A stretch of 64,000 nt of DNA from positions 97,579 through 161,578 of IMG/VR virus record IMGVR_UViG_3300032397_000002. The stretch is one strand, 5' to 3'. The position numbers and the translations under genes are program-made. How positions within the stretch are numbered: the first letter of the stretch is position 1; the number at the start of each line of letters is the position of its first letter. Below, in pieces: positions 2,682 to 39,969 of this stretch. The stretch is from a virus. The notes under the pieces were generated by a model. The model did no database searches and was not told where the DNA came from. It saw only the letters and a program-made list of their open reading frames with translations.

Positions 2682-5207
2682 ATGGCTCAATCGTACGTTA
2701 CCGACGCAGGCACGCTGATTATCCCGGGTGCCTACAGCAGCATCAAGGTGCAGACCGCGAACAGCGGGCTCGCGGCCACGGGCATCCTGATGCTCATCGG
2801 TGAGGCCGATGCAGGACCTCGTTTCAACTCTGAAGCGGACCTGGAGACGAACTCGTTCGGCCCCGACCAGCTCGCTGCTGTCGTCAGCAAGTACAAGAGC
2901 GGCCCACTGGTGGATGCCTTCCGCAACGCGGCGGCTCCTGCCAATGACCCGAACATCGTCGGTTCTCCCAATCGATTCGTTCTCGTCAAGACCAACCTCA
3001 GCACCAAGGCCAGCGGCGCTCTCGGCAAGCAGGCCGGCGGCACCTGGGGTACCCTGAAAGACAAGTCGTACGGCAAGCTCGGCAACCTCATCTACTGGCA
3101 GGTTGCAGCGTCCACCTCTGAAGTGGTTCCCAGCACTGGCTCCTTCAGCTTCATCCCTCCGGTGGGCACCGTCGGCATCGACTTCCGAGTCAACGGTGGC
3201 GCTGCCATCGGCATGACCACGGTCGCCAACATCCAGCCCGCAGCTTTCGTGTCCCAGGTCAACGCCCTCTCGGGTGTTGCAGCTTCTGGCGGCGTCGACC
3301 GCGTCATCCTCAGCGTCTCCGGCACCCTGGCACTCGATGCTAATCCGGGTGGCGCTGGCGCGACGGTCATCGAGCTTGCTCGCAGTGGCGCATGGACCAA
3401 TGCCCCTGTCGCAGGCGACACCCTCATCATCCCTGTCGGCTCTGTTGTGGCCGGTGCTTCTCAGGAGAACGTGGGTGCCTATGTCGTGACCCTCGTCACT
3501 TCGTCCACTCTCCGGGCTATCAAGCTCAGTGACGCTGGCAAGGCCTCCCCCTCGCCTGTCATTGGAACCATCACCAACCCCGTTGACGTGCCGGCTGCTG
3601 CAATCGCGGCGGTAACTGACGCCAAGTCCTTCTCGCCTGTCGTCATCAGCAATGAGGCCGGCGACCCCATCGATGGGCTCGGCAAGGCTCTGGAAATCTG
3701 TGAGTCGGCTGGCGGAACGGACCTCCTGTCCCGCACCGCGTTCCTGCTCGGCACCTCGGGTGCAGTGGCATGGGTCAGCAAGACCGGCGCTGCGAAGCTC
3801 CTGTCCAGCGCAGCTGAACTGAAGGCCAACCTGCAGGTCAACCGCCAGACGGACAACATCAACGAAGAGCTGATTGCAGGCGGAGAAATCGCCTTGAAGA
3901 TTGGCTACCTCGGCACCACGGCAGCTCTGACCATCACCGACACCACCCTCTCGACCACGGTCGTGGGCGGAGCCGGCGGGAACCTCAGCATCACGCTGGC
4001 GGACTTCCCCACCATCAGCGACCTGGCTACCTACATCAACAGCCAGACCGGCTACACCTGCTCTGTGGGCACCGCAGTTCTCGGCCAGCTCTCCAGCGTG
4101 GCCCTGGACAACATCTCGGCAGCCAGCATCTGCAGCGAGTTCGGTGAGCAGCCTGGCCGCATCAAAATCGACGCCTACCGAATGTTCGCTCAGATTCGCG
4201 ACAGCTCGGTTCTTGTGCAGTTGAATGAGCCGGCAGTTCAGGCTGATGCGGGTCTCCCCAAGGTCACCACGGGTATCGCATACCTGGCCGGTGGCAGCAA
4301 GGGCGGAAGCACCAGCGCAGACTTCACCTCGGCCATCGACGCCCTGGCGGCAGTTCGCGGCAACTTCGTCATCCCCCTGGTCAGCCGTGATGCAGCCTCG
4401 GACATTGCTGACGGGCTCACTGAGTCCAGCTCGACCTACTCCATCGACAGCATCAATGCGTACGCCAAGTCGCACTGCCTCAAGATGAGCACCCTGAAGA
4501 AGCGCCGGAATCGCCAGGCCTTCTGCAGCAAACTCGACACCTTCAGCAATGCAAAGGGCGCGTCGGCAAACCTGGCAAGCTTCCGCGTGAGCCTGGCCTT
4601 CCAGGACTTCAAGCAGGTGAACAGCCAGGGCATCCTGACTCAGTTCCAGCCTTGGATGGGCGCAGTGCTTGCGGCAGGCATGCAGGCAGCTGGCTTCTAC
4701 CGGGCCATCGTGAACAAGGGTATCAACACCAGCGGCGTTCTCATGCGGGACGGCAGCTTCAGCGACAAGGACGACAGCCAGGTCGAGGACGCACTCCTCG
4801 CGGGCCTGCTCCCTGCCCGCAAGAGCCTCACCGGTGGGTTCACCTGGGTGTCTGACCAGACCACCTACGGCAAGGACAGCAACTTCGTCTTCAACAGCAT
4901 CCAGGCTGTGTACGTGGCCGACATCATCGCCTTGAGCACCGCTCAGCGGATGGAAGCGGCTTTCGTGGGTCAGTCGGTTGCTGACGTCAGCGCCGGCATC
5001 GCCAAGGCCTACCTCGAAGGCATCATGGCAGATTTCATGGGCCTGAAGCTCATCGCCCCCAGCGACGACGCACCCAAGGGTTTCAAGAACCTGTCCGTGC
5101 AAATCAGCGGCCCCGCGATGGTGGTCAGCCTCGAAGTCAAGCTCGCCGGCGCCATCTACTTCATCCCCATCAGCTTCTTGGTGTCGCAAGTCACCCAGAC
5201 GGCCTAA
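2682..5207 (+). CDS. Tail sheath protein
   Basis: This 841-residue protein is the contractile sheath that surrounds the tail tube and shortens to drive DNA delivery. The N-terminus (residues about 10-60: TLIIPGAYSSIKV, then a GILMLIGEADAG strand) and the C-terminal quarter (about 730-841, ending in beta strands around SVQISGPAMVVSLEVKL) have the layout of the phage tail sheath family; the middle is expanded relative to the 659-residue T4 gp18. The ATG at 2682 follows a good ribosome site and a late-type promoter element. A tube-like gene follows after 25 bp, which is the usual sheath-tube order. Residues 756-785 reappear as a separate small protein on the opposite strand at 16721-17026 (18 of 30 residues identical). 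Confidence 0.9.
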   Translation: MAQSYVTDAGTLIIPGAYSSIKVQTANSGLAATGILMLIGEADAGPRFNSEADLETNSFGPDQLAAVVSKYKSGPLVDAFRNAAAPANDPNIVGSPNRFVLVKTNLSTKASGALGKQAGGTWGTLKDKSYGKLGNLIYWQVAASTSEVVPSTGSFSFIPPVGTVGIDFRVNGGAAIGMTTVANIQPAAFVSQVNALSGVAASGGVDRVILSVSGTLALDANPGGAGATVIELARSGAWTNAPVAGDTLIIPVGSVVAGASQENVGAYVVTLVTSSTLRAIKLSDAGKASPSPVIGTITNPVDVPAAAIAAVTDAKSFSPVVISNEAGDPIDGLGKALEICESAGGTDLLSRTAFLLGTSGAVAWVSKTGAAKLLSSAAELKANLQVNRQTDNINEELIAGGEIALKIGYLGTTAALTITDTTLSTTVVGGAGGNLSITLADFPTISDLATYINSQTGYTCSVGTAVLGQLSSVALDNISAASICSEFGEQPGRIKIDAYRMFAQIRDSSVLVQLNEPAVQADAGLPKVTTGIAYLAGGSKGGSTSADFTSAIDALAAVRGNFVIPLVSRDAASDIADGLTESSSTYSIDSINAYAKSHCLKMSTLKKRRNRQAFCSKLDTFSNAKGASANLASFRVSLAFQDFKQVNSQGILTQFQPWMGAVLAAGMQAAGFYRAIVNKGINTSGVLMRDGSFSDKDDSQVEDALLAGLLPARKSLTGGFTWVSDQTTYGKDSNFVFNSIQAVYVADIIALSTAQRMEAAFVGQSVADVSAGIAKAYLEGIMADFMGLKLIAPSDDAPKGFKNLSVQISGPAMVVSLEVKLAGAIYFIPISFLVSQVTQTA

Positions 5208-16284: not shown

Positions 16285-16500
16285 CTACTCCTTCTTGAAG
16301 GAAGGAGAGATGCCAGTGGCGCCAGCCAGAGAGCGCACGCCAACGGCGAGCACCATGGCCTGGAAGAACGTGATGTGTGGCAGGTTCAGGACGGCCGGGA
16401 CGAAGTAGTTCCAACACGCCTGGGTGATGAAGGTGGTGATGAGCATGGTGGCGATGGCCGAAACGATGACGGCAAGGACGGTGTTGACGGAAAGACTCAT
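16285..16500 (-). CDS. Small membrane protein, two helices
   Basis: A 71-residue protein with hydrophobic segments at about 5-28 and 42-62 and a short basic end (SFKKE). It sits between soluble small-protein genes with ATGA coupling upstream. Confidence 0.6.
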   Translation of the reverse strand: MSLSVNTVLAVIVSAIATMLITTFITQACWNYFVPAVLNLPHITFFQAMVLAVGVRSLAGATGISPSFKKE

Positions 16501-16721
16501 TTGCTTCTCCTGGGGTTGGACAGTCGATTTCTTGCTTCGCGCGCCTTCTTTTGCGCTTCCTGCAGGTTATGTTCTGCTTGCCGCATCTCTGCGACCTTCA
16601 GATGTTCTCTGACGATTGTAGCAAGGGCCGCGCTCTGTGACAAGCCGGTAAGCCTTGCGAAGCCCTCTACGAATTTGTACTCGGGCTCCTCCAAAGTCGT
16701 AGTGACAGGTCTACCTCGCAT
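16497..16721 (-). CDS. Ribbon-helix-helix DNA-binding protein
   Basis: A 74-residue protein whose first 40 residues (RPVTTTLEEPEYKFVEGFARLTGLSQSAAL in outline) fit the ribbon-helix-helix fold: a short strand, a helix, a GLS turn and a second helix. A basic coiled-coil tail follows. Such proteins dimerise and bind operators, often as repressors or antitoxins. Its start overlaps the stop of the sheath-domain homologue (TGATG), so the two are translated together. Confidence 0.65.
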   Translation of the reverse strand: MRGRPVTTTLEEPEYKFVEGFARLTGLSQSAALATIVREHLKVAEMRQAEHNLQEAQKKAREARNRLSNPRRSK

Positions 16722-17026
16722 CAGTCGAACCCCTGGTTGAAGAGGAAGTTGACTGCCCGGCGGTGGTCGTGGTCGTCCAGGCCCTTCTTGGGCTCCATGA
16801 CGACGTGCATCACGTTGCCCTGGAAGGTGACGTCCCAGTCGATCAGCTCCATGACTGAAGGGAAGCTGCCCTGCTGCTGTAGGTCCTTCATGATGCCGTC
16901 GAGGAAGCCCCTGACGACGGCGGCTGAGACGTCGCTCATTGACTGCCCGACGAAGGCCTTCTCCATGCGCAGGCTCATCTCGCGGCTGATGAGGGCCTTC
17001 GTCTCGATGATTTCTTCCTGGGTCAT
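16721..17026 (-). CDS. Free-standing homologue of the tail sheath C-terminal region
   Basis: This 101-residue protein aligns with the end of the sheath encoded at 2682-5207. Residues 20-49 share 18 of 30 positions with sheath residues 756-785, including RME, AFVGQS, DVSA and GIM, and the following strands keep a V-x-x-x-G-x-x-M-x-V pattern. It therefore carries the sheath C-terminal domain without the rest of the protein. It is encoded on the opposite strand, 12 kb away, in the small-gene block that I infer is expressed early. Possible roles are control of sheath polymerisation or interference with another contractile machine; a decaying duplicate is the dull alternative, although the frame is intact and ATGA-coupled upstream. 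Confidence 0.8.
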   Translation of the reverse strand: MTQEEIIETKALISREMSLRMEKAFVGQSMSDVSAAVVRGFLDGIMKDLQQQGSFPSVMELIDWDVTFQGNVMHVVMEPKKGLDDHDHRRAVNFLFNQGFD

Positions 17027-17232
17027 TCCCGGCTCCTGTACACGCGAAGCAGGTACTCCTTGGCAGCCCTGAGACCCTCTTCCCTGTCGACCTTCATGAT
17101 GAGTCTCTTGACCGCATCGAGGACCTGCTCAGACTCAAGGAGGGTCTGGAGCTTCGTGCCAACGTCCAGGTCGTCGCTCAGCTCCTTGAGGCGGTAGTAC
17201 TCGTCGTAGCGCATCGCGTCATCGATGTTCAT
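17023..17232 (-). CDS. Hypothetical small helical protein
   Basis: A 69-residue charged helical protein starting MNIDDAMRYDEYYRLKEL. ATG 17232 overlaps the upstream stop, and the stop overlaps the sheath-domain homologue start, so the two are coupled. No family recognised. Confidence 0.55.
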   Translation of the reverse strand: MNIDDAMRYDEYYRLKELSDDLDVGTKLQTLLESEQVLDAVKRLIMKVDREEGLRAAKEYLLRVYRSRE

Positions 17233-17600
17233 GGGTTCTCCTTGTATTGGGGGCATTCCCTGGCATGACCACAGTACCACGCTTCACAGGTGCACGCCGG
17301 AACGAATCCGTTCTCTTTGCGAACCTGGTCAGCGACTGCCAGGACGTTGGCGGGAAGCTGGTCACGGCCCACCAGCAAGGTTCTCTCCCCGAACTTCAGG
17401 GCGGTCTTCTTGGTGGCCTTGCAATGGCCGTAGTCATCGTCAATGCCCACGATGGAGAGGTACTCTCGTGGGCCTCGCCAGGAGTCGCTCTGCTTGGCCC
17501 CGAGCACCACCCCGAAGCGCAGGCCGGCACAGCGGCCCTTGTTGTGCCCGTAGACGATGATGTCGAAGGGGCTCAGCTCTTTGCCCGCTTTGTCTTTCAT
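17229..17600 (-). CDS. Hypothetical protein with C-terminal Cys cluster
   Basis: A 123-residue protein with an SH3-like beta N-terminal half (PFDIIVYG, GLRFGVVLG) and a C-terminal CTC-x5-C-x5-C cluster that could bind zinc. ATGA overlaps both neighbours. Confidence 0.6.
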   Translation of the reverse strand: MKDKAGKELSPFDIIVYGHNKGRCAGLRFGVVLGAKQSDSWRGPREYLSIVGIDDDYGHCKATKKTALKFGERTLLVGRDQLPANVLAVADQVRKENGFVPACTCEAWYCGHARECPQYKENP

Positions 17601-17892: not shown

Positions 17893-19179
17893 CTACCCTT
17901 TCACGCAGAGGACTTGCTTCAAGGTGTGGACGACCTCAACGAGGTCTCGCTGAGCTTCCATCACCGCGTCAATGTCCTTGTAGGCTGCAGGGGTCTCATC
18001 GACCACCTCGGCGTCCTTGCGGCACTCGACACCCTCGGTGGCCTTGATGTGGTCCTCGACCGTGAATTGCTTGCGCGCCTGGGTACGAGACATGGCACGA
18101 CCAGCCCCGTGGCTGCACGAGTCGAAGCTGTCTGGGTTGCCGAGGCCACGGACGATGTAGGAGCGGGTCCCCATCGAGCCGGGTATGATGCCCAGGTCGC
18201 CCTTGCGCGCACGTACAGCCCCCTTGCGGGTCACGTAGACGTTGGCTCCGAAGTGATGCTCCTTGGCAACGTAGTTGTGGTGGCAGTTGACGGCGAACTC
18301 GTAGCCGGCTGCCAGGTCCAGCACGTTCATGGCAGGTTGGATGATTTCAGGGAAGTAGTGGTGCATCTGCCCCATGACGGCAAGAGCCATGAGGTCGCGA
18401 TTCTTGGAGGCATACTCCTGCGCCCAGCCGACTGCTTCCATGTAGTCGTTGAAAAGCTCGGTGTTCTCGGGGAAGTAGGCGAGGTCCTTGTCGGGGAGGT
18501 TGATGTAGAACTTCTGCATCTCCTCACGAGCCTTGCTGATGAAGAAGGAGCCGATGGCGTTGCCGGGCCCACGCGAGCCGCTGTGCAGCATCACCCAGAC
18601 ATGTTGCTCTTCGTCCAGGCAGACCTCCACGAAGTGGTTGCCAGTGCCAAGGGTACCAAGGTGGCGATCCACCGACTTGTGCTTGATTTTCGGATACTTG
18701 TCGGTGATGCGCTTGTAGCGCTCCACCATGGATTCCTGCATGAAGGGGGCGTACTCCAGCGTGGCCTTCACGTCCAGCGGGATGGTTCCCCACGCTCCAC
18801 GGTCGCCGGGCCCACCATTGGAGGTACGACCGTGCGGCACCGCACGCTCAATGGCGTTGCGAAGCTTGGCCAGGTTGTCGGGCAGGTCAGAGGCACGGAG
18901 GGGAGTGCGAATTGCCATCATGCCACAGCCGATGTCAACTCCCACGGCAGCGGGGATGATGGCCCCACGGGTGGGAATCACAGAGCCGACGGTGGCGCCA
19001 ATGCCGGCGTGGACGTCGGGCATGATGGCCACGTGCTCGTGAATGAAGGGCATGCTGGCGATGTTCAGGACCTGCTGACGCGCTTGCTCCTCGAAGAGGA
19101 CGCCTCGGGTCCAGGACTTCACCAGGGCCTTGCCAGACTCAGCTTGGAATGGAACATCGTAATTTCGGTTGGGATTCAT
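17893..19179 (-). CDS. rtcB: RNA ligase RtcB
   Basis: This 428-residue protein is a full-length RtcB, which joins RNA ends carrying 2',3'-cyclic phosphate or 3'-phosphate to 5'-OH ends using GTP and Mn2+. Visible family motifs are DVHAG at 55-59, VDIGCG at 81-86 with metal ligand C85, GTGNHFVEV, HSGSRGPGN, CHHNYV, GSMGTRSYIVRG, and SCSHGAGRAMSR with H357 as the guanylylated His. ATG 19179 overlaps the upstream stop by ATGA. Archease, a common partner, is not seen. With the RlaP and Thg1-like genes on the same strand, repair of tRNAs cut by host defence nucleases is the likely role, though this is inference. Confidence 0.95.
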   Translation of the reverse strand: MNPNRNYDVPFQAESGKALVKSWTRGVLFEEQARQQVLNIASMPFIHEHVAIMPDVHAGIGATVGSVIPTRGAIIPAAVGVDIGCGMMAIRTPLRASDLPDNLAKLRNAIERAVPHGRTSNGGPGDRGAWGTIPLDVKATLEYAPFMQESMVERYKRITDKYPKIKHKSVDRHLGTLGTGNHFVEVCLDEEQHVWVMLHSGSRGPGNAIGSFFISKAREEMQKFYINLPDKDLAYFPENTELFNDYMEAVGWAQEYASKNRDLMALAVMGQMHHYFPEIIQPAMNVLDLAAGYEFAVNCHHNYVAKEHHFGANVYVTRKGAVRARKGDLGIIPGSMGTRSYIVRGLGNPDSFDSCSHGAGRAMSRTQARKQFTVEDHIKATEGVECRKDAEVVDETPAAYKDIDAVMEAQRDLVEVVHTLKQVLCVKG

Positions 19180-19649
19180 ATGTCCATCGCCCTCTCGTGG
19201 TAGCAGCCTTTGCACAGTACCACAGGAACGTCTCGGTTGTGAATCTCGGATGCGAACGGGCAGAAGCCTTCGCTCACGCTATCATCAGTGCCACCACAGT
19301 CCTGGCAGACGAGCTTGACGCTTCTTGGCGAGTTGTTGATCTCCTCCAAGATGCGGTCGTTGGCGGCCTTTTTCTTGGCCAATTTTATGAGGCTCATAGC
19401 CTGCCAATGAGCCTCAATCTCTGCAGCGTCCATGTGCTTGAAGTCAACCAGACACGCGCCACACTGCATCTCGCCGTCGTCCCCGTACAAGATGGAGAAG
19501 TGGTTGGGGTCGTGACGGAGCCAGAGCAGCCTCTGGAGTCGCTCCACCTCACCTACCAGGTCGTAGACCAGCCGATGGGGCTTGTCCTTCCATTCAGCTG
19601 CCAGGGGCCCAAGCCCGCTGGGTGCGCGGTGGTAGTCGTCGGTGTTCAT
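19176..19649 (-). CDS. Zinc-finger protein upstream of rtcB
   Basis: A 157-residue protein with CGAC near 83-86, CQDC near 121-124 and a CKGC pair near the C-terminus, giving one or two zinc sites around a helical centre. Translation is coupled to rtcB by ATGA. I do not recognise it; a role with RtcB is only suggested by position. Confidence 0.6.
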   Translation of the reverse strand: MNTDDYHRAPSGLGPLAAEWKDKPHRLVYDLVGEVERLQRLLWLRHDPNHFSILYGDDGEMQCGACLVDFKHMDAAEIEAHWQAMSLIKLAKKKAANDRILEEINNSPRSVKLVCQDCGGTDDSVSEGFCPFASEIHNRDVPVVLCKGCYHERAMDI

Positions 19650-31443: not shown

Positions 31444-33960
31444 ATGGCAGACTCTAAGCAAATCAAATTCCAGTTCGTAGTTGACCAGGGCAGCGCCCGC
31501 GAAGTCAACCGAGTTCTTGATGAGATGATCAAAAAGGCCCAGGACCTCGGCAAAGCCTTGCAAGGGGTCGGTGGCGGTGGCGGTGGTATTTTGGGTGGGG
31601 TCAGAGCGGGCTCTGGGACTCCCAGCTCTCAGAGCACGCTTGCTGGCCGTGGTGGCTCTGCCAGCCAGAGGGGCGGGACCTTCACTCAGATTCTCGGTGG
31701 TAGTGCTGATGGCTTCAAGAAGCTGGCGTCAGAAAGCGGCGCGGCCATGAAGGCCATGACCGACTCCCTTCAACGGGCAGCCAGTCAGCAACAGAGCGCA
31801 GTCGATAAGCTCTCGAAGGAGCTGGACGCCCTTGCCAAGATGTACGACAAGGTCGGCGGTAAAGCCAGCGGCGCTTTCGGCGAGAAGCTCCAGGGCCTGA
31901 TCCTCAACAAGGCCCAAGAAGTTCAAGACTCCAGACGAGAGCTGAGCAAGCTTCGCCAGATGGAGGGGGACCAGATGGCTGGCCCCCGGGATGACACCGT
32001 CATTCCTGGGGAAGCGAAGAGAGGCTTCGGCGGGCGCATGAAGGATGCCTACGCCCAAGGCGGCGTGCGAGGGCTCATGGGTGCCGAGATGGCGCCTGGA
32101 TTCGGTGGTGGGCGCTTCGGCATGTCAGGGGTCGGGACTATCGGTCAGGCATTGGCCCTGGCTGCGGTCGGCAAGTGGGGCTACGACGAGGTTCGTGAAG
32201 GCGGTGGGGGCATCTTCTCCAGCGATCCCAACAACGCCGGCCAGGGGGCCATGGACCTTCGGGCCAAGTCTCGGCGGGGCAAGCTGCTCAACAGCCGGAT
32301 TGACGCACTCCGTGGCGGCGACATCTCTCAGTTGATCGTCCGAGAGGATATTGCAAGGGACTCGGCCACCGAGAAGTACTACCAGCAGCAGATGGATGCC
32401 GCTTCAACCGCAGAGGCCTACGCCAAGGGCGGTATGGAAGGTCTCGGCAAGCTTCCCCTCATCAAGCAGGCCCTCGGGTTGGTCGGCAAGGGTGGCGGCG
32501 AAGGAACAGCTCTTGAGGGGCTCACCACTGCAGAGATCCAGAGCAAACTCCTGGAGAACATCCAGTCTGTCGAGGCAAAACAGTCGGACAACGTTGACAC
32601 GCACCAGCGCCTCAAAGACTTTCAGTACTACCAGAGCAGCCTTGGTAGTCGCACCAATGCTCAAAGAGTGATGGGCCTGACCCTGCACGGCAAAGACGGT
32701 CGTGGTGGGCCGCAAGGGACCTACGGCAATCTGGCCGGCTGGGCGACGGAGCAAGCTCTCAATCCCGACCAGGTGGTCAGCAACTTTGGCAGCCTCCGAA
32801 TGATGGGGGGCTCGAAGTTTGCTGGTCAGATGGCTAAGTACGAGACCCTATCACAAGCTGGCGGCTATAGCGGTTTCGGCCAGCTCGCAGCCCATGCCCA
32901 GGGTGGTGGTGGTACCGCACAGCAGGCCTTCCAGTTGGCCCGTGGTGCCTTAGGCGGTGGCATTGCTACCGGAGCTGGCATGCAGCTCGGCGGGTTGATG
33001 TTCGGGTACAACCCGCTCGGTACTACGAGCGGTGAAGGCCTTCTGGCCGCATCCCAGATGGGGATCGATTGGAAGTCCCTGAACGAAGGCCAGCAGTTCA
33101 ATAAGGTCCAGGCGCTCGGTGGAGGGATGAAAGGCCTCAATGCCGTTGCCACCGGCACGCTTGACAACGAGTCTCTGGGCGCCAGTGTGCTCAGCGCCAA
33201 ACGCATCTTGGGGCAGGACACCACCAACCCCAACCGTCTGGGCACCCGTGCTATCGACTATCTAGCCAGTGGAATGGACCTGAAGCAGATGTATGACATT
33301 GGGCAACGTGGCGGCAAGATGACAGACAAGATGGATGTCTACGGAATTGGTCGAAGCGATGTTCGCCAACAGTTTTCGGCCAAAATCTCTTCACTATTTA
33401 AGTCTCAGCTGGACGATCCAGCGGTAGCACCTGGCTTGAAGAAGCTCATCGGCGGCTTGGATGCTGACGCTGCCAGCGTGGCGGCTGGAGGGCCCGAAGG
33501 TAACACCCTCCAAAGGCTGCTCGGAAAGGGGAAGGGATCGCTCTCGGCTGCCGAGAAAAAACAAATCAACGTAGCTCTGTCCAACCGAACGGGCATGGGT
33601 GGAGAGGAGGCTGAGGCAGCACGCGAGGTGCTCGGCGGCTTCGGACTTGGAATCAAGAACTACAAGATCAAGACGGGAGACGCTCTCGGAGCCAAGCTGT
33701 CTGGGCCTGAGCAGGCTTCAGCAGCCGCTGCTGCTGAAGAGGTTCGGCTTCGAGAGGCGGGGCTCAAGACCGATGACCCGACCGCGAAGATCAAGGGGGG
33801 CCATGAAGCGGCCAAGGCGCAGAAGGACTTCGGCTCGAATCTAGGCGCTGAGGTGTCCGACGTAGCTGCGCATCTTGCCAGGCTCGCAACTGCCATCTCA
33901 AAGGCCACTGAAAAGATCGAAGGAAAGAGCGGGATGCGAGAGAAGGCCACGGGCGGGTAA
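31444..33960 (+). CDS. Tape measure protein
   Basis: This 838-residue protein follows the chaperone-like genes and precedes the hub, the usual place for the tape measure, which sets tail length. It has an N-terminal helix (SAREVNRVLDEMIKKAQDLGKAL in part), a run of Gly at about 42-50, long Ala/Gly/Lys/Gln-rich helical stretches and an Ala-rich C-terminus. By the rough rule of 0.15 nm per residue it would give a tail near 125 nm. No lytic domain is visible. Confidence 0.8.
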   Translation: MADSKQIKFQFVVDQGSAREVNRVLDEMIKKAQDLGKALQGVGGGGGGILGGVRAGSGTPSSQSTLAGRGGSASQRGGTFTQILGGSADGFKKLASESGAAMKAMTDSLQRAASQQQSAVDKLSKELDALAKMYDKVGGKASGAFGEKLQGLILNKAQEVQDSRRELSKLRQMEGDQMAGPRDDTVIPGEAKRGFGGRMKDAYAQGGVRGLMGAEMAPGFGGGRFGMSGVGTIGQALALAAVGKWGYDEVREGGGGIFSSDPNNAGQGAMDLRAKSRRGKLLNSRIDALRGGDISQLIVREDIARDSATEKYYQQQMDAASTAEAYAKGGMEGLGKLPLIKQALGLVGKGGGEGTALEGLTTAEIQSKLLENIQSVEAKQSDNVDTHQRLKDFQYYQSSLGSRTNAQRVMGLTLHGKDGRGGPQGTYGNLAGWATEQALNPDQVVSNFGSLRMMGGSKFAGQMAKYETLSQAGGYSGFGQLAAHAQGGGGTAQQAFQLARGALGGGIATGAGMQLGGLMFGYNPLGTTSGEGLLAASQMGIDWKSLNEGQQFNKVQALGGGMKGLNAVATGTLDNESLGASVLSAKRILGQDTTNPNRLGTRAIDYLASGMDLKQMYDIGQRGGKMTDKMDVYGIGRSDVRQQFSAKISSLFKSQLDDPAVAPGLKKLIGGLDADAASVAAGGPEGNTLQRLLGKGKGSLSAAEKKQINVALSNRTGMGGEEAEAAREVLGGFGLGIKNYKIKTGDALGAKLSGPEQASAAAAAEEVRLREAGLKTDDPTAKIKGGHEAAKAQKDFGSNLGAEVSDVAAHLARLATAISKATEKIEGKSGMREKATGG

Positions 33961-37443: not shown

Positions 37444-39969
37444 ATGGCATCAGACATCTTCAGACCCATACCCCAGATTCAGCTAGAACAAGCCGTAAAG
37501 TCAAACATCGACATTCGAGATGATGCCGGCGACTTCAAGGACGCCTTCTGGGATTATTCGGACCTCCGTGCCACTGCCAACTACTGGAGCCATCGTCTTC
37601 CTTACCGGCTCAAGGTCTGGAAGAGGGTCGATGGAAACTGGACCAACACAAGTCCATTCACATCGTTCATTCTTCCAATTCCACCGGAAAGTCTCACCGT
37701 TAGCGTTCCCTATGCCATCACCACGACTGTAACCCTTGGCGGCATCGTTGAGGAACACAACGGTGCACCACTGAGAACCATCGTCATCAGTGGCACCACC
37801 GGGGTGACACCTCTCCGTGGCACTGCCATGTCGGAAGCAATTGCAAACCGTGGGGCTTCCAGCATTCCAGCGTCCATTTTTGCTGGCACCCTTAGTGGTG
37901 TCAGCTCTTTGGCGTCGAGTGTTGAACAGCTCGGAACCGGAAACGGAAAAACCGGCGCTCTCATCGATACCAATTTGGATGAAACCAAAGACAGTAGCGG
38001 CTACATGCAGTTCAAGCTTCTGCAACGCTTCCTTGAAGCCTACATCGCTCTCAAAAAGACGTCCAAGGGGAGAGACTACGTCTTGGTTTTCGAGATGTGG
38101 AAAGACGCAGAGATGTACTTCGTGACGCCGGTGAGTTTTGAACTGCGAAGGTCGACTGCCAGTCCACTTGAGTACCAGTACTCAATCATCATGAAGGCCT
38201 GGAAGCGTCAGAATCCTGGGGTGTACAAGACCGCCGCATTTGATAACCCGATTGTCGCCAAGGACCTAAACAACCTAGCCAAGGCAATGAACTCTCTGGA
38301 GCTTGCCAGGGGCGTTCTTGAGGGGGCAAGGAAAGTCCTGACCGGAATTCGAGCGGACATCAACGAAAGTTTGTTCACTCCCATCAGAGAGAGCGTCTTG
38401 TTTGTCAAGGACATCTTGGGGGTAGCCCTGACCGCTGTCGATCTCCCGTCAAATATCATCTCAGACATGAAGGGGCCCATCGCAGCAGCTTCTGGGGTCG
38501 CTGGAACACTCAAAGAGTTCGGTGGGGTCGGGAATCGTCTGAAGAATGCTGGAGAGGGGCTGGTCAATGCAGCCAAAGACATGGCTCAGGCCTTTCAGAA
38601 CCTCAGCATCAGTAGCGGGGCCTCTCAGACCGGCTCTCCAGACCAGCAGGATAGCGGCAGCAACCAGCAGTCTTTGGAAGACGGAAGCCCGGCCCACAAG
38701 GGGGCTGCTAACCCAGACGACAACTTCGAGTTTTTCAAGACTATCAAACCGGGTACGTTGAACCTGTCTCCCCATACTCAGAAGAAAATCACCGATGAAA
38801 AACTTCGTGTCCGCAAGCTCAAGCGAGAAGACTTCGAGGCTCGCAGAGACCTCATTGCGGGCACCCTCACTGATTTTCAAGACTCCATCGGTCTTGGCAA
38901 TGCCACCTACACGAGAATCTACGGTCTAACCCCCAAGACCCAGCTCCGGGAGGCCAGCGAGTCCGACTTCGATGTCATCTTCGCCTTGAACGCTACGGTC
39001 ATTGAGATGAACCGCCTCGCTGCCAGCTCGAACATCAACCGAGACGAGGTTTCAGCCATTGACTACATCGCTGGCCTGGCTTCCAGGTCGGGGATTGCCT
39101 TCAAGACGCCCAAGTCGAAGTTCTTGGTCCCGTTCCCCTACGGCCACACCCTTGAGCAGATCAGCAAGATGTACCTTGGGACCGAAGACAGGTGGCATGA
39201 AATTGCCGCTCTGAACGGCCTCCTTGCCCCCTACGTGGACGAAACAGGCTTCACCCTCCCCCTCCTCACGAATGGCAACGGAAACACCGTCACGGTCAGC
39301 GATGGCTCGAAATTGTTCGTGAATCAGCCTGTTTGGATTAGCAGTACGGCTGTCGGGCGCATCAAGCAGCGCATCACCAAAATTGAGCCCCTGAGCCCCG
39401 GCTTGGTGGCTGTGACCATGACGGGCGACAGCACCTTGAGCCAATTCACCGTGGGAGCCGGCGCCGCAATCCAAGCCTTCCTTCCCAACACCGTGAATTC
39501 ACAGCAATCGCTCTTCATTCCAAGTGACGAAGAGGTTGTTGAAGAGGACTACCGGCTCAAGTCGGTGCCCGGTGTCGACCATTTCGACCCCCTCCTGAGG
39601 GTTGGTGGCATCGATTTGCTCTTGACTCAGTCTGGAGACCTGGTCATCACCCCAGATGGTGACACACGCCTGGCTGTAGGCCTCACGAACATTGTTCAGA
39701 AGGTGCGGCTGGTCATTGACACGACGCGAGGTAGCCTTCTGCACCACCCAGACTACGGTTTCCCTTCCATTCTGGGTGAAAGTACGGCCGACGTCAGCGC
39801 CACCGACCTCCTGAAAATCTGCAAGGACCTTTTTCGAGATGACCCCACCTTCACTGGGGTTGAGTCTGCAGCAATCTTGAAGGACGGGCCGGTCTGTAAA
39901 ATCACCCTCTCGGTGGGGATTGCCGGCACTCAGCAGGTCATCCCCATCACTGTAGAGATCCCCCGGTAA
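37444..39969 (+). CDS. Fused baseplate protein: N-terminal domain, LysM/gp53-like and gp25-like domains
   Basis: This 841-residue protein joins functions that are usually separate. The N-terminal part (about 70-270) has TVSVPYAITTTVTLGGIVEEH, common in LysM-type baseplate proteins. FPYGHTLEQISKMYLGTEDRWHEIA at about 562-586 is a LysM/gp53-like unit. The C-terminus (about 710-841, RVGGIDLLL to ITVEIPR, with HPDYGFPS) is gp25-like, the conserved wedge component that starts sheath assembly. The gene lies just before the gp6/J-like wedge gene, matching the gp25-gp6 order of contractile systems. Confidence 0.75.
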   Translation: MASDIFRPIPQIQLEQAVKSNIDIRDDAGDFKDAFWDYSDLRATANYWSHRLPYRLKVWKRVDGNWTNTSPFTSFILPIPPESLTVSVPYAITTTVTLGGIVEEHNGAPLRTIVISGTTGVTPLRGTAMSEAIANRGASSIPASIFAGTLSGVSSLASSVEQLGTGNGKTGALIDTNLDETKDSSGYMQFKLLQRFLEAYIALKKTSKGRDYVLVFEMWKDAEMYFVTPVSFELRRSTASPLEYQYSIIMKAWKRQNPGVYKTAAFDNPIVAKDLNNLAKAMNSLELARGVLEGARKVLTGIRADINESLFTPIRESVLFVKDILGVALTAVDLPSNIISDMKGPIAAASGVAGTLKEFGGVGNRLKNAGEGLVNAAKDMAQAFQNLSISSGASQTGSPDQQDSGSNQQSLEDGSPAHKGAANPDDNFEFFKTIKPGTLNLSPHTQKKITDEKLRVRKLKREDFEARRDLIAGTLTDFQDSIGLGNATYTRIYGLTPKTQLREASESDFDVIFALNATVIEMNRLAASSNINRDEVSAIDYIAGLASRSGIAFKTPKSKFLVPFPYGHTLEQISKMYLGTEDRWHEIAALNGLLAPYVDETGFTLPLLTNGNGNTVTVSDGSKLFVNQPVWISSTAVGRIKQRITKIEPLSPGLVAVTMTGDSTLSQFTVGAGAAIQAFLPNTVNSQQSLFIPSDEEVVEEDYRLKSVPGVDHFDPLLRVGGIDLLLTQSGDLVITPDGDTRLAVGLTNIVQKVRLVIDTTRGSLLHHPDYGFPSILGESTADVSATDLLKICKDLFRDDPTFTGVESAAILKDGPVCKITLSVGIAGTQQVIPITVEIPR

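Follow-up and report, generated by a model that had tools for sequence, protein, structure and literature searches.

A free-standing homolog of the tail sheath C-terminal domain

The 64,000-nucleotide window analyzed here comes from the 168,622-base record (G000) of a large contractile-tailed phage related to Myxococcus phage Mx1. It carries a free-standing paralog of the C-terminal domain (CTD) of the phage's own tail sheath, encoded by a small gene at positions 16721-17026 on the minus strand (P0001, 101 aa, stop codon included in the coordinates). As judged from its sequence, the small protein is a genuine sheath-CTD homolog, and it looks like an accessory tail-assembly regulator or a re-used part. 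The sheath gene (2682-5207, plus strand; 841 aa, phrog_279, E 2.6e-32) has its CTD at about 4887-5204. A first-pass annotation of this DNA had described the small gene as an intact, ATGA-coupled, free-standing copy of that domain on the strand opposite to the sheath; all of this was confirmed, with the distance to the sheath gene being 11.5 kb rather than the claimed 12 kb.

The similarity is strongest where the annotation had first noticed it, and a recount of residues 20-49 against sheath residues 756-785 gave exactly the 18 identical positions out of 30 that it had reported. Searched against its own genome, the small protein matched the sheath with E 4.5e-8, and it alone of the block's 128 ORFs had a paralog (E < 0.002) in another part of the genome. 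In 2.3 Gb of phage DNA from 50,697 phage records, its only match was the sheath of Myxococcus phage Mx1 (E 9e-7), the CTD of which matches at 41% across residues 12-80. An HMM of the sheath CTD scored the small protein and its two orthologs at 41.9, 32.4 and 31.9 bits, while the best of 15,000 shuffles reached 13.6 bits, and profile-profile comparison by hhalign aligned residues 12-81 to the sheath CTD (probability 98.2, E 4.5e-14). Chance similarity is ruled out by the shuffles, the HMM and hhalign. The resemblance is unevenly distributed. The helix part (residues 1-52) is the most sheath-like, with a z of about 20 over shuffles, and its FVGQS..DVS motif and helix-2 pattern have remained close to the sheath, whereas the hairpin that follows is only modestly or weakly similar (z 3.4, 4.5 and 1.9 for the three orthologs, the lowest being P0003). 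At the end of the C-terminal tail a short FL..Q similarity to the sheath was seen that is slightly above chance, its score being reached by 22-29 of 2000 shuffles.

The gene lies in a minus-strand accessory block, outside the tail operon and the structural clusters. Its ATG start follows an AGGAG by 8 nt and forms an ATGA overlap with an upstream gene at 17023-17280 (minus strand; 85 aa, function unassigned), the junction reading GGGAATGACC. At its other end a TGATG overlap (junction GACTGATGCG) joins it to a gene at 16497-16721 (minus strand) for a 74-aa ribbon-helix-helix-like protein with a weak PSK_trans_fac match, and the next gene, at 16285-16500 (minus strand), encodes a small membrane protein (phrog_2169, E 3.4e-7). 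These last two genes accompany the CTD gene in all three phages that carry it; the 85-aa upstream gene was not found in G016. An RtcB-type RNA ligase gene (17893-19215, minus strand) adjoins the block in this phage; no counterpart was seen in the syntenic stretches of G010 and G016 that were examined. A scan for promoters and terminators gave results near chance level.

Predicted fold of the small protein

We modeled the small protein with AlphaFold2 from an input of the three orthologs (mean pLDDT 85, pTM 0.72), and the sheath fragment separately with its own relatives (mean pLDDT 72). In the predicted structure, helix 1 (residues 3-25; 16952-17020, minus strand) is the counterpart of the long helix of the sheath CTD, which spans residues 44-70 of the fragment. 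Helix 2 (residues 35-51; 16874-16924, minus strand) follows the FVGQSM motif, and a beta-hairpin with strands at residues 62-69 and 72-79 (16790-16843, minus strand) forms the core of the acceptor platform described below. The sheath fragment continues from its long helix with a helix at 80-96 and strands at 110-118, 121-130 and 136-144, so that the order helix-helix-strand-strand is common to the two independent models. The earlier claim that the small protein keeps the strand pattern following the match thus stands for the hairpin but, by prediction, not for the last strand: where the sheath fragment has strand 136-144, the C-terminal tail of the small protein (KKGL..DH.RAVNFLFNQ; 16724-16789, minus strand) is predicted to form a helix at residues 85-95. 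The CTD core of two long helices and a beta-hairpin is therefore predicted to be retained, and the last sheath strand, which is donated to neighboring subunits, has apparently become a helix. The small protein begins at the CTD helix and is without the N-terminal arm and the N-terminal part of the core, being 101 aa long compared to the 841 aa of the sheath.

A Foldseek search with the sheath CTD fragment found solved sheaths first, with a probability of 1.00. For the small protein, the best match in the PDB was chain X of 9euf, the phi812 baseplate (TM 0.52, probability 0.84, E 0.5); this entry includes the phi812 sheath sequence among its chains, and chain X is not necessarily that protein. 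The E-values of these fold searches (best 0.5 in PDB and 0.049 in BFVD) are not significant by themselves.

Distribution among related phages and selection

Full-length orthologs of the small protein were identified in two relatives, G010 (168,933 bases; sheath 89% identical) and G016 (a 38 kb fragment; sheath 83% identical), with 66% and 55% identity, respectively. Both are encoded at the same place, in the syntenic minus-strand block. Mx1 (169,621 bases) and the relative G020 (169,280 bases; sheath 53% identical) do have the sheath and the initiator domain; however, no copy of the CTD gene was found in either, where a profile of the three sequences matched the sheath only. Second matches to the sheath CTD in Mx1, G020 and G010 corresponded to the fused initiator domain and were not standalone copies. 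Further standalone members were found neither in an alignment scan of viral contigs nor in bacterial genomes or plasmids, scans with the neighboring genes revealed no additional relatives with the block, and other matches to the DNA pattern of FVGQSM were unrelated proteins. Weak matches in an abalone-associated virus and in Arthrobacter phages (E 0.6 or worse) fell inside or across other genes and were taken as chance; a 248-aa frame in another contig (G001, 9749-9826, L052) resembling residues 1-26 with E 0.009 is probably a chance helix match. Since G010 and G016 have copies, while Mx1, G020 and the wider scans gave none, the CTD gene looks like a clade-specific accessory gene.

Between the copies of this phage and G010, 25.8 of 65.5 synonymous sites differ, compared to 48.2 of 237.5 other sites (Fisher p 0.002). 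Because these differences are biased against amino acid change, the gene is not decaying, and decay in related phages, which the first-pass annotation had named as evidence against its reading, was not seen. With intact copies at matching positions in three phages, purifying selection, and coupled or overlapping starts kept among the relatives, the gene is ruled out as a decaying fragment. It changes faster than the sheath, however, with a dN/dS of about 0.42 compared to 0.16. The constraint is concentrated in the C-terminal tail: among the three orthologs, 15 of 19 positions (residues 80-98) are invariant, compared to 28 of 82 elsewhere (p 0.0006), and the copies of this phage and G010 differ at 2 amino acids in the tail and at 9-12 in each of the other segments. 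In a phylogenetic tree the three orthologs group together and apart from every sheath (100/100), separated by a branch of 2.7 changes per column, which is too long for the donor sheath lineage to be assigned from the tree.

Comparison with sheath initiators and other known systems

In Vibrio phage XM1 the sheath CTD, made of two long helices and antiparallel strands, is the platform where two subunits of the next ring add their N- and C-arms as strands, and the free-standing 117-aa initiator gp15 is similar to the sheath CTD and takes hold of those arms as well (PMC10457771). The initiator gp30 of phage A-1(L) likewise holds sheath arms (PMC10966104). Free-standing proteins with the CTD fold are thus already known as initiators, and the claim that no phage protein of this kind had been described is too strong, for T4 gp25, XM1 gp15, A-1(L) gp30 and TssE share the fold and are free-standing. 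It is for a sheath-derived accessory copy that is not an initiator that we found no precedent, and no earlier report, in the open-access literature.

The small protein resembles these initiators (T4 gp25, XM1 gp15, A-1(L) gp30, and TssE/HsiF of type VI secretion systems) in being free-standing, about 100-140 aa in size and of sheath-CTD fold. It differs in being nearer to the sheath, in its location outside the baseplate cluster, and in not being found in relatives that also build tails. The EPR motif is the hallmark of gp25 (PMC3352280), whereas the EPR(L) turn motif was absent from all three ortholog sequences, and no Pfam match of the small protein to the gp25-like family (PF04965) was obtained. 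Moreover, this phage already has a gp25-like initiator domain (39571-39966, plus strand), the C-terminal part of an 841-aa baseplate protein (37444-39969, plus strand; phrog_975), with weak PDB profile matches to the phi812 baseplate wedge subunit and TssE. By hhalign the small protein matched this domain of its own phage with a probability of 10.7%, compared to 98.2% with the sheath CTD. Membership in the sheath initiator family is ruled out by this profile comparison, the missing EPR motif, the fused initiator already present and the minus-strand accessory context, and these comparisons argue that the small protein is not an initiator. The domain is conserved in Mx1, G010 and G020, where it closes a frame of 826-850 aa. 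The initiator domain itself aligned to the sheath CTD with an hhalign probability of 91.9% and shares with it a detectable VG.S.AD motif. As sheath, fused initiator and small protein are all related, this phage and G010 carry the CTD-type domain three times.

With the CTDs of phrog_279 sheaths, including the solved structures of Lin1278 (3lml), DSY3957 (3hxl) and phi812 (5li2), the small protein shares homology over residues 12-81, covering two helices and the hairpin. It is unlike them in being free-standing, without the N-terminal domains and N-arm, with a predicted helix as its last element, and outside the tail genes. Jumbo phages have second sheath copies, paralogs that arose by gene duplication (PMC9230969); the small protein is likewise a sheath paralog, but the jumbo phage paralogs are described as sheath protein copies, and here only the C-terminal domain is present. 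Tab and Tai are known for tail-assembly interference in phage-phage conflict, targeting tape measure or tail tip proteins (PMC10884400, PMC11364771). They set a precedent for small proteins, encoded by phages or satellites, with an effect on tail assembly, and are not described as sheath-derived.

Possible origin and function

Sequence comparison indicates that the gene arose from the tail-sheath CTD of this phage group, with the cut falling where the long CTD helix begins, and that one clade has retained it as an accessory gene. The reading that we put forward tentatively, well below even confidence, is that its product is a soluble mimic of the sheath platform, one that engages the arms of the sheath and keeps polymerization in check. 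The small protein would keep the acceptor platform, the docking site in real sheaths for an N-arm and a C-arm from two neighboring subunits, and would act as a soluble, dead-end analog of the sheath initiator, to whose hairpin free sheath monomers could add their arms as strands. Lacking the N-terminal 700 residues with their arm and, by prediction, the donor strand, it could not support onward linking; monomers would therefore be held back from docking, or stray polysheath stopped, until the tubes are ready. A regulator- or target-specific contact may be added by the conserved helical tail. A more specific and more doubtful version is that the acceptor domain was duplicated and its donor strand turned into a helix, giving a soluble dead-end mimic, expressed separately from the tail genes, that controls sheath polymerization in trans, like a capping protein.

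This model is built on three sequences, and is consistent with the CTD homology, the domain boundary at the CTD helix, the element order common to the two predicted structures, the top PDB match in the phi812 baseplate entry, the synteny and purifying selection in three phages, and the accessory, non-core distribution of a gene not found in Mx1 and G020. In XM1 and A-1(L), no more than a free protein of the CTD fold is needed to hold the N- and C-arms of the sheath. The diffocin C-strand, which folds onto the monomer it belongs to prior to assembly and is exchanged on assembly (PMC6088184), offers a further analogy. Against the mimic, the best conserved stretch is the non-sheath-like helical tail rather than the platform, which points to a new partner, the hairpin similarity is weak (z only 1.9 in P0003), and the predicted helix at 85-95 could lie over the edge of the hairpin and prevent strands from adding there. 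As the tail, the most constrained segment, suggests a partner of its own, we rank as equally plausible, and consider just as tentatively, that a sheath-derived scaffold has lost contact with the sheath and uses its conserved helical tail to bind a different target, of the phage or the host. The coupling to unrelated genes in an accessory minus-strand block that includes the ribbon-helix-helix-like gene and the small membrane protein, a tail whose conservation far exceeds that of the sheath-like part, the long branch from all sheaths and a dN/dS above that of the sheath all favor such re-use. The FVGQS..DVS motif and helix-2 pattern, still near the sheath, speak against it, though they may reflect only fold constraint.

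The first-pass annotation had proposed that the protein could cap or delay sheath polymerization, or poison a rival contractile device. This interpretation is partly supported, in that a sheath-derived CTD kept in related phages outside the tail operon, without the N-arm and by prediction without the donor strand, could bind sheath arms and not extend the chain; the poisoning of a rival device is unsupported. We consider it unlikely that the protein, by occupying arms, acts on the sheath of a competing phage or on a host type VI secretion system. The location in an accessory block would suit such a weapon and Tab and Tai provide an analogy, but the closest sheaths belong to its own group, so that its own tail would be expected to be hit too; neither a match to PADLOC anti-phage defense profiles nor similarity to TssB, TssC or TssE in the PDB profile search was found. 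Slightly less probable still is a minor virion part, such as a second initiator-like or collar component in the tail of this clade: the fold and size are those of XM1 gp15, but this phage, G010, G020 and Mx1 each already have a fused initiator domain, the gene lies outside the structural clusters, and its profile and missing EPR motif set it far from the initiator domain. That the gene is a functionless relic of a duplicated sheath fragment would account for the fast evolution relative to the sheath, and is hardly credible given three intact copies at the same place, amino acid changes below neutral expectation and retained coupled or overlapping starts.

Sheath assembly is known to be controlled by the baseplate and the terminator. 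Should the mimic prove to bind sheath arms, contractile sheath assembly would have a natural inhibitor or chaperone that acts in trans, and a small protein tool against sheath polymerization would be at hand. Even if the domain was re-used, a virion assembly domain would have become a stand-alone accessory protein within one phage clade, with the parent sheath and the derived copy coexisting in one genome.

Two further observations concern the tail genes of this phage. The N-terminal part of the baseplate protein at 37444-39969 (plus strand) matches the tail-tube-initiator family PF23980. An 838-aa protein encoded at 31444-33960 (plus strand) is a tape-measure candidate, and since it is 33% identical to its G010 counterpart, compared to 89% for the sheath, it changes much faster than its neighbors.
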